Below are positions 4,736-40,079 of a stretch of DNA of 64,000 nt, one piece after another. The DNA lies in assembly GCF_002082565.1 (NCBI RefSeq), contig NZ_CP020562.1, positions 1,178,001 through 1,242,000 on the forward strand, in the 5' to 3' direction. The notes beneath the pieces are model-generated. The model was not told the origin of the DNA and made no database searches. It saw only the letters and a program-made list of their open reading frames with translations. Within the stretch, counting starts at the first letter, position 1; each line of letters opens with the position of its first letter. The position numbers and the translations under genes were made by a program. The DNA comes from Halomonas sp. GT. GTDB taxonomy: Bacteria; Pseudomonadota; Gammaproteobacteria; Pseudomonadales; Halomonadaceae.

Positions 4736-4811
4736 GTCCCATTCGTCTAGTGGTCTAGGACACCGCCCTTTCACGGCGGTAACAGGGGTTCGAACCCCCT
4801 ATGGGACGCCA
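4736..4811 (+). tRNA. tRNA-Glu(TTC), copy 1
   Basis: Acceptor stem GTCCCAT/ATGGGAC, anticodon TTC in the loop CCTTTCACGG, T-arm GGGGTTCGAACCCC and encoded CCA; 76 bases. Confidence 0.98.
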
Positions 4812-4868
4812 CTTACTCTTTATAGAGTAAGAGGTTATAGAGTAAGAGTTCGTCAAGGTATCGGAATT

Positions 4869-4943
4869 GCGGGAATAGCTCAGTGGTAGAGCATCGCCTT
4901 GCCAAGGCGAGGGTCGAGAGTTCGAATCTCTTTTCCCGCTCCA
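4869..4943 (+). tRNA. tRNA-Gly(GCC), copy 1
   Basis: Acceptor stem GCGGGAA/TTCCCGC, anticodon GCC in CCTTGCCAAGG, encoded CCA; 75 bases. Confidence 0.98.
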
Positions 4944-4947
4944 AAAC

Positions 4948-5023
4948 GTCCCATTCGTCTAGTGGTCTAGGACACCGCCCTTTCACGGCGGTAACAGGGG
5001 TTCGAACCCCCTATGGGACGCCA
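4948..5023 (+). tRNA. tRNA-Glu(TTC), copy 2
   Basis: Same sequence as copy 1, four bases after tRNA-Gly copy 1; 76 bases with encoded CCA. Confidence 0.98.
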
Positions 5024-5050
5024 ATCCGATTTGCGAGTAATACAGATTAA

Positions 5051-5125
5051 GCGGGAATAGCTCAGTGGTAGAGCATCGCCTTGCCAAGGCGAGGGTCGAG
5101 AGTTCGAATCTCTTTTCCCGCTCCA
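5051..5125 (+). tRNA. tRNA-Gly(GCC), copy 2
   Basis: Same sequence as Gly copy 1; 75 bases with encoded CCA. Confidence 0.98.
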
Positions 5126-5129
5126 AAAC

Positions 5130-5205
5130 GTCCCATTCGTCTAGTGGTCTAGGACACCGCCCTTTCACGGCGGTAACAGGGGTTCGAACCCCCTATGGGA
5201 CGCCA
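5130..5205 (+). tRNA. tRNA-Glu(TTC), copy 3
   Basis: Same sequence as copies 1 and 2, again four bases after the preceding tRNA-Gly. Confidence 0.98.
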
Positions 5206-5236
5206 TCTCGCATTTTTGTAGCATTGTTTGTTTTAC

Positions 5237-5311
5237 GCGGGAATAGCTCAGTGGTAGAGCATCGCCTTGCCAAGGCGAGGGTCGAGAGTTCGAATCTCTT
5301 TTCCCGCTCCA
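5237..5311 (+). tRNA. tRNA-Gly(GCC), copy 3
   Basis: Same sequence as copies 1 and 2; last tRNA of the array. Confidence 0.98.
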
Positions 5312-16856: not shown

Positions 16857-16933
16857 TGTTTGCTCTTAAGTTATAAAATGATACACAAAATACTTATATT
16901 ATAAAGGCATGGCCAACTGCCCGTGTCAAAGGC

Positions 16934-16996
16934 GATCGATTTTAGAAACGACCGACTTTAAAACGACTGATTTTAAAAACGACTGATTTTAAAATC
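16934..16996. repeat. Four tandem 15-16-base repeats at the 3' end of the MipA gene
   Basis: Units at 16934, 16950, 16965 and 16981 follow the pattern GACTGATTTTAAAAAC with a few changes. The last unit contains the MipA stop codon and final Phe codon. It looks like slippage or duplication of the gene's end. Confidence 0.75.
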
Positions 16997-17786
16997 GATA
17001 GCTTAACGATACTCCGGTGAGGGCTTGCCAATCGCTGCCTAACTCATCAACGATTGGGCTGTCGGCCGCGCTGCCAGTAAGGTGGGTTGCGCCGACGAAG
17101 CCAGTGGCTGTCCATTCAGGTGTCAGGAAGTAGCTGAGGCTAGCATTCACCCCCATTCGCCAGTAACCGCCGTCTGGGGTATAGGCTGCTACACCGCTGC
17201 GCGCGCTATCTTGAACCGACACACCAAATAGCGATTCGGTCCACTTCTCATTTGAATACGTAACGCTGGGTGTTAGCGTGAAGAGAGTGCGTTCGCTAAC
17301 AGGCATACGCAGGGCGGCGTTGGCTGAAAATTTTGCGCCTTCAACGTCGCCGCTCACCGGCGTACTGCCTGCAACGCTATAACGCCAGAACCCTTGCTGA
17401 TAGCTAACCCGCAGACCTAGCGTTGCCCCGCCATCGACTTTTTCAAACTGGCGGATATCGCCCTTATTGTCTCGCCCAAAGGTGTAGCCAATGAACGGGG
17501 AAGCGGTCCAGTTACCGTTACGGACAGCGTGCCACTCAATACCGTTGCGCACGTTGATCGAGAGCTGATCGCCGTATGCCAGGTTAAGGACAGGCCATGC
17601 TCGTGTGTCATAGTCGTCGCTGCCTAGGTAGTCAGGTGAGTAGGTCACGCCTGCGCCGATACTGCCTTCCCAGCTGTCTCCCAACGCAGGAGCGGTTAAT
17701 GCGATGCTAAAAGCAGCCGCTAACCAGGGGGTAAAATACTTATATTTAGAAGCGCTTTGAGTAGCGCGAGAAACGAAAGTTGTCAC
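16989..17786 (-). CDS. MipA/OmpV-family outer-membrane protein
   Basis: 265 residues: N-terminal signal peptide ending near APALGDS (about residue 37), then an acidic beta-rich sequence with SIGAGVTYSPDYLGSDDY typical of MipA/OmpV proteins, and a C-terminal Y-R-F, as in outer-membrane barrels. Family members act as MltA-interacting scaffolds or outer-membrane barrels. The start is a GTG at 17786, seven bases after AAGGA. Confidence 0.88.
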   Translation of the reverse strand: MTTFVSRATQSASKYKYFTPWLAAAFSIALTAPALGDSWEGSIGAGVTYSPDYLGSDDYDTRAWPVLNLAYGDQLSINVRNGIEWHAVRNGNWTASPFIGYTFGRDNKGDIRQFEKVDGGATLGLRVSYQQGFWRYSVAGSTPVSGDVEGAKFSANAALRMPVSERTLFTLTPSVTYSNEKWTESLFGVSVQDSARSGVAAYTPDGGYWRMGVNASLSYFLTPEWTATGFVGATHLTGSAADSPIVDELGSDWQALTGVSLSYRF

Positions 17787-17929
17787 GGGGTGTCCTTTTA
17801 ATTATTCAAACGTGCGTGATTGTATGTTTTTGATTCAAGCGACTGCAAGCTCTCTAGAGGCCTGTGTGGTTCATGAATTGAAACTATTTTCTGTTTCATA
17901 GCTTAGGTTAGATAACTCAACGGCTATAG

Positions 17930-18085
17930 GGCGCACTGTGTGCACATAGCGCAGGGATAGCGCTACAGGGAAGTGCAAGCAGGGAGTGCTTGTGATGCAC
18001 AAGGACGCATGAACAGGATGTTCGTGAAGGAAGATCAAGGAGGACCTGATAAAACCCCGGCCAGTGCGATGGCCGGGGTTTTTTT
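17930..18085 (+). ncRNA. CsrB/RsmZ-like CsrA-sponge sRNA, copy 1
   Basis: A region without coding potential carrying seven or eight GGA motifs, many in small hairpin loops: AGCGC-AGGGATA-GCGCT (17948-17964), AGGGAA (17967), CAAGC-AGGGAGT-GCTTG (17976-17992), ATGC-ACAAGGAC-GCAT (17995-18010), GAAC-AGGAT-GTTC (18011-18023), then AAGGAAG and CAAGGAGGAC. It ends in a strong terminator CCCCGGCC...GGCCGGGG plus seven T (18055-18085). Looped A-GGA repeats are how CsrB/RsmY/RsmZ RNAs bind and sequester the translational regulator CsrA/RsmA. The 5' end is approximate; I could not find a canonical GacA box. A related copy lies 450 bases downstream. Confidence 0.82.
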
Positions 18086-18106
18086 ATGGGCAAACGGCAC
18101 TGTTGA

Positions 18107-18322
18107 CTAACAAGCGTGATGATAAAACAGTGCGCTGAGTTTGCTCATTGGTGTGGATACCGCCGTTTGGCAATTCATACAGCGTAGTGTCGCGCTGTCT
18201 TTGCCAGTGCCTTCAAGGCGAAATCGTTTTAGGTACGATGTTGTCGAGGATTCCGCGTTGCCGCAATGACGGCAAATAATATCCACGCCGTATACAGTCG
18301 GGCTGATCATGATATGTCTCAC
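18107..18322 (-). CDS. Small zinc-ribbon-like protein between the two sRNAs
   Basis: 71 residues with two Cys pairs, C-R-H-C-G (about 18-22) and C-M-N-C (about 48-51), spaced as in a single zinc ribbon. The start is a GTG at 18322: AGGAGG lies five bases upstream of it, while the ATG twelve bases further in would be too distant. It is transcribed against both flanking sRNAs and ends 22 bases from the terminator of copy 1. No family recognised; nucleic-acid binding is possible but unproven. Confidence 0.65.
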   Translation of the reverse strand: MRHIMISPTVYGVDIICRHCGNAESSTTSYLKRFRLEGTGKDSATLRCMNCQTAVSTPMSKLSALFYHHAC

Positions 18323-18534
18323 GCTGACCTCCTAACGCAAGGGGGTTAATGGGTTCAGTCGTGGTAACGTCCGTGTAGAAATGCATCCGTGACGATGCTT
18401 AAAAAGTATAAACAGCAAACGGCTAGTTCGCCATTTATATAAGCAGCTATCTATTTATGAGCTGGTAGTAAAAAAATTAAAAAAACGCATGTTTTGATAT
18501 CCCAGGTTAATGTTTTTGACATATATGAGGTTCA

Positions 18535-18681
18535 TGGTGAGTAACAACACAGGGAACGGTGTGAGGGAGCACGACCAAGCAGGAAAGCTTGTTAAACCAA
18601 GGATGCACGGACAGGATGTTCGTGAAGAAGGATTACGGAGGAAATACTACTACCCCGGCCAGGAATGGCCGGGGTTTTTTT
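18535..18681 (+). ncRNA. CsrB/RsmZ-like CsrA-sponge sRNA, copy 2
   Basis: Paralogue of the RNA at 17930-18085. Looped GGA motifs: ACAC-AGGGAAC-GGTGT (18547-18562), GTG-AGGGAG-CAC (18561-18572), CAAGC-AGGAAA-GCTTG (18576-18591), CACGGAC-AGGAT-GTTCGTG (18606-18624), then AAGGAT and CGGAGGA. The terminator ACCCCGGCC-AGGAAT-GGCCGGGG with seven T carries another GGA in its loop (18652-18681). The 17-base stretch ACAGGATGTTCGTGAAG is identical in both copies. A TTGACA at 18516-18521 could be a -35 but lacks a good -10; the 5' end is approximate. Confidence 0.82.
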
Positions 18682-18711
18682 ACGCTAGTGTCTGGCTACA
18701 GTAGCTCTTTG

Positions 18712-20010
18712 CTACTTCTTCGCTTTTTTGGGCTTTGAGGCTTTTTTGTCTTCATCTTTATCAGACTTGTCACTGTCAGGCTTGTCGCTACCTTGATGGC
18801 TAAGCGGGCTGGCCTGGTCAAGCCGTGGATGGTTGTCCAGGAATTCCCGCTGAAGATCGGGTAGGGCATCCAGTGCTTTTAAGGTGTGGGTCAGCGCGTG
18901 AATGGCCGCGAGCACATCCTGGGTGTTGCCGGTTTCGGAAATAGTGTGCATGTTGCGGATCGGAAAGCCGATTGAGGTAGCTGCGCTATCAATAGAGGCC
19001 AGCACGCCAGCCATGCCGTCAGTTCCCGTATCCACACCAACGATGTCTCGCTGCAGGGGAATATCCTGCTCTTTGGCGGCGCTGGCGATAATGCGGTTGA
19101 GCTGTTCGCTGGCAATAGAACCTACCGCCATGGTGAAGCCTTTGCCCATCTCTAGCGGCTGCATGCGTTTGTCGCCAATACCAGGAGCAGCTACGTAGTC
19201 GTGGTTAACGTCTACGCCAATGAGTGCGTCTGGTTTTAATTCGCCAGCCAACACGCGGCTGCCGAAACGGCCAATTTCTTCGTAGCTGGCAATGGCAAAC
19301 AGCACGCGTACGTTTTCGGTGCCGCCAGCCTCCGCGATTAGCTTCGCCACTTCTGCAGTAACAAAGCAGCCCAAGCCATTATCCAGGTAAGCCCCGTAGA
19401 AGGTGTTCGGGCTAAAACCAGGGCGAATAGGGCGGTCGAAAATAATGGAATCACCCGGGCGAACGCCTAGATTCAGCACTTGCTGCTTTTTATTTTCGCC
19501 GTGGATTTGCAGGTCCAGGTAGATCTGCTCTTTTTTGATGCCTTTGCTGCCATCGCGTTGTGCAGGATCAGAAAAGTGAATAGCGCCTAGGGCTTCTACT
19601 GTGCCACCTTGGATGCAGCGGTAGCTGCCGGGGGCGTCAGGATCTTCGCTGAACAGCTTCACTTCATGGCCGATAAGTACAGTCGGCAAGAAAGAGTCAG
19701 TGTTGATCCAGATCTTGCCGTCTTCGCCAATTGAGCGAACCTGCATGCGGATTTTGTCCGCGTGGCCGATGATCATGACTTTGAACATGTCATCGCGACC
19801 TGGGTGGGTATCCAGCACTACGCCAGCATTGCCTTTAAACTGATGCAGATGCCAGCTGGTTGGCGCGAAGCTTTCAAAGTAAGGCTTCAGTACGCCGTAA
19901 GTCATGGCGCCTTCCAGACCTACCGGGCTGGGGGCGGCAAGAATGTCGCGCATGATGTTGAACTGCGCATCGGGCATAGGCTGCGTCCAGGGTTTGGCGC
20001 TGTCGCTCAT
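18712..20010 (-). CDS. M42/M20-type zinc metallopeptidase with charged C-terminal tail
   Basis: 432 residues. Metal ligands are visible as IGHADKIRM (H, D), GAYLDNGLG (Asp), SYEEIG (catalytic Glu pair), GVDVNHD (Asp) and NMHTISETGN (His). This matches M42-like aminopeptidases, including the type linked to breakdown or handling of the osmolyte NAGGN in halophiles. That link is only suggested here, as no NAGGN synthesis genes are present. The last 30 residues are a Lys/Asp/Ser-rich tail without a fold. The ATG follows GAGAGAG. Confidence 0.83.
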   Translation of the reverse strand: MSDSAKPWTQPMPDAQFNIMRDILAAPSPVGLEGAMTYGVLKPYFESFAPTSWHLHQFKGNAGVVLDTHPGRDDMFKVMIIGHADKIRMQVRSIGEDGKIWINTDSFLPTVLIGHEVKLFSEDPDAPGSYRCIQGGTVEALGAIHFSDPAQRDGSKGIKKEQIYLDLQIHGENKKQQVLNLGVRPGDSIIFDRPIRPGFSPNTFYGAYLDNGLGCFVTAEVAKLIAEAGGTENVRVLFAIASYEEIGRFGSRVLAGELKPDALIGVDVNHDYVAAPGIGDKRMQPLEMGKGFTMAVGSIASEQLNRIIASAAKEQDIPLQRDIVGVDTGTDGMAGVLASIDSAATSIGFPIRNMHTISETGNTQDVLAAIHALTHTLKALDALPDLQREFLDNHPRLDQASPLSHQGSDKPDSDKSDKDEDKKASKPKKAKK

Positions 20011-39744: not shown

Positions 39745-39820
39745 TCCTCGATAGCTCAGTTGGTAGAGCAAATGACTGTTAATCATTGGGTCGCAGGTTC
39801 GAGTCCTGCTCGAGGAGCCA
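39745..39820 (+). tRNA. tRNA-Asn(GTT), copy 1
   Basis: Acceptor TCCTCGA/TCGAGGA, anticodon GTT in CTGTTAATC, encoded CCA; 76 bases. Confidence 0.98.
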
Positions 39821-39888
39821 ATAAACTGAAGCAGACTTTGTGCTGATTTCAGTGGCTTCGCTCTAAACACAGCAGCAAAATGTAATGT

Positions 39889-39964
39889 TCCTCGATAGCT
39901 CAGTTGGTAGAGCAAATGACTGTTAATCATTGGGTCGCAGGTTCGAGTCCTGCTCGAGGAGCCA
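39889..39964 (+). tRNA. tRNA-Asn(GTT), copy 2
   Basis: Same sequence as copy 1, in the same transcript. Confidence 0.98.
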
Positions 39965-40003
39965 AACTGCTGTTCTTCTGTTATTACCGCCTAAGGTAGA
40001 TGT

Positions 40004-40079
40004 TCCCCGATAGCTCAGTTGGTAGAGCAAATGACTGTTAATCATTGGGTCGCAGGTTCGAGTCCTGCTCGGGGAGCCA
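40004..40079 (+). tRNA. tRNA-Asn(GTT), copy 3
   Basis: Differs from copies 1 and 2 only at the fourth acceptor pair: T-A is changed to C-G on both strands (TCCCCGA/TCGGGGA), a compensated change that shows the stem is under selection. Confidence 0.98.

Follow-up and report, generated by a model that had tools for sequence, protein, structure and literature searches.

Tandem genes in a Halomonas genome that probably encode CsrA-sequestering small RNAs of the CsrB/RsmZ type

An intergenic, GGA-rich stretch in the genome of Halomonas sp. GT, read in a first-pass annotation as an RNA of the CsrB/RsmZ type, raises the question of whether it encodes a small RNA (sRNA) that sequesters CsrA and, if so, to which family this RNA belongs and how its promoter is controlled. 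The window (the whole stretch of DNA analysed, 64,000 nucleotides or 64 kb) lies within a single-contig genome of 4.16 Mb and contains two predicted RNA genes in tandem on the + strand, approximately 600 bp apart, between a MipA-type gene and an M42 aminopeptidase gene. The downstream gene (copy 2) is a diverged paralogue of the upstream one (copy 1). The two RNA genes have a 65-nt core in common (80% identity) and, as judged from their sequences, very probably encode CsrA-sequestering sRNAs of approximately 140 nt of the CsrB/RsmZ type.

The tandem RNA genes and their GGA hairpins

The features of the locus are given below in window coordinates.

17946..18085, + strand: copy 1 of the predicted CsrA-sponge sRNA, approximately 140 nt with a predicted 5′ end; eight GGA, three covarying GGA hairpins and a terminator
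17947..17965, + strand: hairpin 1 of copy 1, loop AGGGAUA (fold and covariation)
17975..17993, + strand: hairpin 2 of copy 1, loop GGGAG (fold and covariation)
18008..18026, + strand: hairpin 3 of copy 1, with CAGGAUG (fold and covariation)
18034..18050, + strand: possible hairpin 4 of copy 1, 4 bp with a 9-nt loop holding two GGA
18051..18085, + strand: intrinsic terminator of copy 1, 13-bp stem (18051-18082) and T run to 18085
17899..17910, + strand: palindrome of copy 1, TAACC-N2-GGTTA-like, TAGCTTAGGTTA, 8/10 positions, centred approximately −41.5 from the predicted start
17934..17939, + strand: −10-like element of copy 1, CACTGT, without TGN; spaced from the palindrome as is TGN-CANNNT in other genera
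18545..18681, + strand: copy 2 of the predicted CsrA-sponge sRNA, approximately 137 nt with a predicted 5′ end; nine GGA before the terminator
18498..18509, + strand: palindrome of copy 2, TATCCCAGGTTA, 9/10 positions
18533..18538, + strand: −10-like element of copy 2, CATGGT (promoter comparison)
18107..18322, − strand: 71-aa ORF with two CxxC pairs between the RNA genes, a neighbour and not part of the RNAs

Copy 1 is intergenic and, by sequence, terminator-ended, without evident coding capacity. The lack of coding potential reported in the first-pass annotation was borne out, as no + strand ORF of at least 25 aa lies wholly within copy 1 and the one that overlaps it (17973-18110) reads through the terminator. 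The three nearest reading frames of annotated size, those of the MipA-type outer-membrane gene, the 71-aa ORF and the M42 peptidase, are all located on the − strand. No Pfam family matched the 71-aa ORF above its cut-off; its stretch, at approximately positions 209-511 of the 801-bp region 17900-18700, is also matched in a number of genus genomes. Immediately downstream of the MipA-type gene there is an inverted repeat (16932-17002) with 32-nt arms that are 75% complementary.

The annotated RNA (17930..18085) was described as ending in an intrinsic terminator, and its end stands, since a 13-bp stem is followed by a T run to 18085, whereas its start is more likely to be 17946 than 17930, based on the conserved CACTGT at 17934-17939 and on the clean fold of hairpin 1 from that start. 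TATAGG (17925-17930), considered as the −10 element of copy 1, was replaced by CACTGT after comparison with copy 2 and with other genera; as TATA is well conserved among the copy-1 sequences of the genus, TATAGG may still serve as the −10. A sigma-70 consensus scan of 17700-18750 returned no promoter.

Eight GGA motifs were counted in copy 1 (starting at 17955, 17969, 17983, 18003, 18016, 18029, 18039 and 18042), in keeping with the at least seven noted initially. Dinucleotide shuffles of 17928-18049 had a mean of 3.8 GGA, and 11 of 2000 reached eight; in mononucleotide shuffles, a looser control, the mean was 4.9 and eight was reached in 127 of 2000. For copy 2, with nine GGA, the mean of dinucleotide shuffles was 4.8 and the observed number was reached in 9 of 2000 (13 of 2000 for mononucleotide shuffles). 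The number of GGA alone is therefore moderately unusual, and it is their placement that carries the case. Across the 64-kb window, 126-nt stretches with at least eight GGA are found on the + strand only, with starts at 17917-17955 and 18512-18582, which correspond to copy 1 and its downstream copy; the − strand has a maximum of seven per 126-nt stretch.

Folding z-scores of −5.9 and −2.9 were obtained for copy 1 and copy 2, respectively. The minimum-free-energy fold of copy 2 keeps hairpin 3 and the terminator and lacks hairpins 1 and 2 as aligned. Copy 1 had been credited with four perfect looped GGA hairpins, three of which are supported by fold and covariation. The fourth is paired in 95.8% of the cells when copy-1 sequences are aligned, shows no covariation in that alignment and is absent from the minimum-free-energy fold, so the original count is slightly generous.

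Conservation and covariation of the hairpins

Alignments A1 (24 copy-1 sequences) and A2 (22 copies) were picked by eye from matched genus loci, and covariance model R1 was built from 24 copy-1 sequences of the genus, the window's copy 1 included. A larger alignment, A5, consists of 108 sequences from the genus and the family, from which model R2 was built. Copy 1 scores 170.8 bits with R1 and 143.5 bits with R2, both of which were built with this copy; copy 2 was found by R1, the copy-1 model, at 85.8 bits and by R2 at 100.5 bits. R1 matched 66 of the 82 genomes of the window's genus (Vreelandella/Halomonas), hitting the genome of the window at two places and no more, and with strict filters matched 109/201 family genomes, representing 14 of 24 genera including the window's own. 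The 801-bp region 17900-18700 is matched in 67/82 genus genomes. A 17-base word from the RNA, searched for without mismatches, was present in 74 stretches, six of them in Halomonas/Vreelandella records and the others chance-like. When 293 genomes of the order were searched with R2, 23 were matched, nine of them in the family; the 14 others, at 45.5 bits or less, may be related or merely similar. No match was found in PLSDB plasmids.

In A1, 99.1% of paired cells hold standard pairs, and two-sided changes were seen in 21 cells compared with 7.2 after shuffling, while two of five covariation measures, the number of pairs with two-sided changes and that of further pair types, were within reach of the shuffles (58/500 and 45/500). 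In A5 each of the 27 pairs has at least one two-sided change (443 two-sided cells versus 133 shuffled), and 91.5% of cells are paired, compared with at most 46.4% when partners were slid; the fitting of A5 to the model favours the model's own structure and GGA words, for which sliding and shuffling control only in part. Two-sided changes at hairpin 1 affect 2/4 pairs in A1 and 4/4 in A5. For hairpin 2, the weakest-paired helix of A5 (83.0%), they affect no pairs in A1 and 7/7 in A5, and for hairpin 3, with 97.7% of cells paired, 7/7 pairs in A5.

Conservation of the looped GGA hairpins in relatives had been set beforehand as a test, and the loop GGA of hairpins 1, 2 and 3 was kept in 104/108, 105/108 and 108/108 sequences of A5, respectively, an outcome that speaks for the CsrB/RsmZ-type reading. 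Each of the three linkers contains at least one GGA in 107/108, and the number of GGA per RNA ranges from 5 to 10 (median 7). A SELEX consensus of RUACARGGAUGU, with GGA located in hairpin loops, is given in the available excerpt of PMC7652899; by sequence, the CAGGAUG of hairpin 3 is the best conserved CsrA-like site of the RNA.

Promoter elements, regulatory partners and copy number

Upstream sequences were compared for two sets of copies. The genus set comprised 85 of the 89 matches of at least 60.8 bits (of 113 listed), with L190, L192, L193 and L195 left out, and the set for other genera comprised 69 better-scoring copies, namely 49 of 50 matches (all but L241:68-206) together with 20 stretches from G190, a draft genome of the family. 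In the other genera, a CYTACR half-site, which corresponds to the 3′ half of a GacA-like upstream site, is present in 43/69 copies in two search intervals 22 bp apart (39 near, 16 far, 12 both), compared with approximately 0.5 per interval and a maximum of 4/69 in shuffles. The palindrome TAACC-N2-GGTTA lies 8 bp beyond the nearer half-site, with at least 8/10 positions matched in 41/69 copies (shuffles 0.26, maximum 2), and is followed at a fixed distance by TGN-CANNNT. If TGN-CANNNT is an extended −10 element, the promoter of the other genera would consist of a GacA-like site at approximately −65 (the nearer one), a palindrome centred at approximately −41.5 and this extended −10. An example of the GacA upstream site is quoted for P. 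brassicacearum in the available excerpt of PMC7911923.

In the window's genus the palindrome was found in 73/85 copies, 24-33 nt before the model start (58 copies have it at 28 nt; 0.45 in shuffles, with a maximum of 3), and the GacA-like half-site in 0/85 copies in either interval. Both window copies are included in this set and follow the genus pattern, the palindrome being present and the GacA-like half-site absent. A search of the window's genome for the combined half-site and palindrome pattern, with up to two mismatches, returned one place away from both copies. This comparison points to an apparent rewiring of the promoter in the window's genus, in which the GacA-like site would have been lost and the palindrome kept, and the missing half-site makes the link between GacA and the RNAs of the window's genome an indirect one.

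The protein partners are encoded in the same genome. There is one CsrA match, of 62 aa, which starts with MLILTRR, holds VHREE and is above both NCBIfam cut-offs; csrA is located directly behind a gene that by eye looks like an aspartokinase gene. The sequence of this CsrA is the same as that of the H. hydrothermalis CsrA printed in the available part of PMC12889724. L4 and R44 of CsrA are described as critical (PMC7652899, excerpt), and a CsrA with the RNA-binding residues is thus encoded together with the RNAs. A GacA/UvrY equivalog (285.8 bits versus the NCBIfam cut-off of 280) lies approximately 58 kb beyond the window's end, and GacA matches occur in 80/82 genus genomes, 73 of them above the cut-off. 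A 906-aa kinase with HAMP, HisKA, HATPase, receiver and Hpt domains is closest to BarA, with 614 bits, under the BarA cut-off of 890.

In the proposed mechanism, the RNAs would be transcribed from start sites predicted from the sequence, and several CsrA dimers would bind each RNA, lowering the amount of free CsrA and releasing mRNAs that CsrA represses (or protects). Activation of the RNAs in the other genera is probably the task of a GacS/GacA-type two-component system. In the window's genus, GacA may act via a diverged site, or may have handed over to a palindrome-binding factor. We tentatively propose that the Halomonadaceae have their own, undescribed and partly strongly amplified CsrA-sponge family, whose promoters in Vreelandella have dropped the GacA-like site, retain the palindrome at approximately −41.5 and are driven by a second activator, a combined reading that falls a little short of being probable. 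If true, sponge production would no longer depend on GacA, even though the lineage has retained this regulator.

Copy number varies widely. Some genus genomes have three or four R1 matches, partly in tandem. R2 with permissive filters was applied to 27 chosen genomes (the window's genome, 12 genus genomes that R1 had not matched and 14 family genomes with many matches) and matched 17 of them, the top counts being 22, 17, 16, 12, 11 and 10; in the window's genome there were again two matches. The three highest counts come from three genomes of one genus, and we know of no larger set of such sponge RNAs than these 16, 17 and 22 matches per genome. In G190 (approximately 40 contigs) the 22 matches represent 20 distinct stretches on 12 contigs, with 5 to 15 GGA each and a GacA-like half-site in 12/20; three of these matches reach no more than 31 to 34 bits, and at least two stretches are fused double units. 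Three G190 loci (L295, L299 and L302) look like two sponge units fused in a longer RNA, with 9 to 15 GGA. In a family genome, a guanidine-II riboswitch match is located between sponge RNA copies (L234, 684-734).

Sixteen of the 82 genus genomes had no R1 match. Ten of the 12 that were rescanned with R2 were still without a match, and the four omitted are 66-88% complete. Loss of GacA as the cause of the missing match was ruled out, since 15 of the 16 carry a GacA match (four of these under the cut-off); G010 has sponge RNA matches and no GacA match. One stretch of a no-match genome (L322) has at most three GGA per 120 nt. Another locus (L321 of G026, a genome without an R1 match) has eight GGA per 120 nt on the − strand from approximately 814 downwards; the spacers are purine-rich, and hairpins are not evident. 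Two genomes without an R1 match have GGA hairpins arrayed in tandem ahead of a terminator, with 26 GGA in G039 (L314) and 11 in G081 (L313); arrays of this type occur in these 2/82 genus genomes and are absent from the window's genome.

Alternative readings and relation to known CsrA-binding RNAs

The reading of the RNAs as CsrA-sequestering, which the first-pass annotation had offered for copy 1, is supported by looped and single-stranded GGA that are kept while the stems covary, the terminator, the lack of evident coding capacity, the presence of CsrA and GacA in the genome and the GacA-like half-sites upstream of 43/69 copies of the other genera. An intergenic location and an intrinsic terminator followed by a T run would equally be expected of a base-pairing, Hfq-type sRNA with an incidental GGA content, a reading that we consider very unlikely; a base-pairing seed would be expected to conserve other stretches than loop GGA within covarying stems, and the sub-threshold Rfam matches to base-pairing sRNAs are mostly over terminators. 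CsrA sites are also known in mRNA leaders (PMC7652899, excerpt), and the RNAs could on this basis be 5′ leaders or other cis-acting CsrA-regulated RNAs instead of free sponges. This is extremely improbable, as terminators close both copies, the three nearest reading frames are on the other strand and G190 has its 20 distinct stretches distributed over 12 contigs. Hardly any weight can be given to a functionless dispersed repeat carrying a terminator, which would fit the count of as many as 22 matches within a genome, given the compensatory changes, the fixed promoter spacing and the wide divergence among the copies of one genome.

A covariance search with the CsrB and RsmX/Y/Z models, put forward with the original annotation as a check, returned none of these families at the Rfam gathering thresholds. 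The window scan at gathering gave 12 tRNA matches and no other family (CsrB, CsrC, RsmX and RsmZ included), and for 20 loci of relatives the matches were a tRNA and a guanidine-II riboswitch, with no CsrA-binding sRNA among them. The window also holds tandem tRNA arrays (4736-5311 and 39745-40079), with three Glu/Gly pairs and three tRNA-Asn. CsrB and CsrC had no row for the window RNAs in either the gathering or the permissive scan. Of the CsrA-binding sRNA families, RsmY alone appeared in the permissive table, at 21.1 bits with an E value of 0.0098 for 1051 bases, and the RNA might on this account be a direct RsmY orthologue, that is, a diverged member of RF00195. We regard this as unlikely, since the score of copy 1 is far under the gathering value of 57, copy 2 has no RsmY row and no RsmY was found at gathering among the 20 loci of relatives.

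As far as searched, the RNA appears by its sequence to represent a new family of the CsrA-sequestering kind, as no Rfam family was reached and no description was found in the literature. The suggestion that it may be undescribed in this group holds to the same extent: no description of such RNAs in Halomonadaceae was found among the papers listed from a literature with few subscription titles on Halomonas or Halomonadaceae and CsrA, CsrB, RsmZ, GacA or sRNAs, and the available parts of PMC12889724, PMC7366521, PMC3715671 and PMC13414033 do not describe them. A table from 2020 lists GacS-GacA, a bracketed CsrA and an sRNA given as 'Unknown' for Halomonas anticariensis (PMC7366521, excerpt). The RNAs are candidates for the sRNA missing from this table, and the finding yields a covariance model, a promoter signature and two deletable tandem genes. 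The Halomonas group is used for making bioplastics and ectoine. The family also offers a natural series, from one to approximately twenty sponge copies, for studying how cells adjust their pool of unbound CsrA and what makes sponge genes multiply.

CsrB ends in an intrinsic terminator, as the Halomonas RNAs do, and is much longer than approximately 140 nt. CsrB and CsrC of Escherichia coli resemble the Halomonas RNAs in having multiple GGA, many of them looped, and in being expected to sequester CsrA (PMC7652899, excerpt), and differ from the Halomonas RNA with its approximately 140 nt and eight GGA. RsmX, RsmY and RsmZ of Pseudomonas and Azotobacter share with the family the GGA hairpins, several amplified copies and an upstream GacA-like site, the last found on the Halomonas side in the other genera of the family. 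They are also similar in size to the Halomonas RNAs. The differences are that the GacA-like site is missing in the window's genus and that the RsmY model gives 21.1 versus 57 bits; a further feature set beside these, from the Halomonadaceae promoters compared here, is the TAACC-N2-GGTTA palindrome at approximately −41.5. Pf1, Pf2 and Pf3 of Pseudoalteromonas fuliginea are Csr sRNAs from a marine species, likewise recognised by GGA, promoter and terminator, and carry 25, 21 and 9 GGA, respectively, a comparison made by description (PMC11882849, excerpt). For Pf2 and Pf3, E. coli glycogen staining served as an assay in that study. What is unusual about the Halomonadaceae RNAs is their expansion in copy number, together with the apparent rewiring of the promoter: A. 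vinelandii is reported to have eight Rsm sRNAs, or nine according to another passage of the same excerpt (PMC11330419), compared with up to 22 matches, or 20 distinct stretches, in G190.
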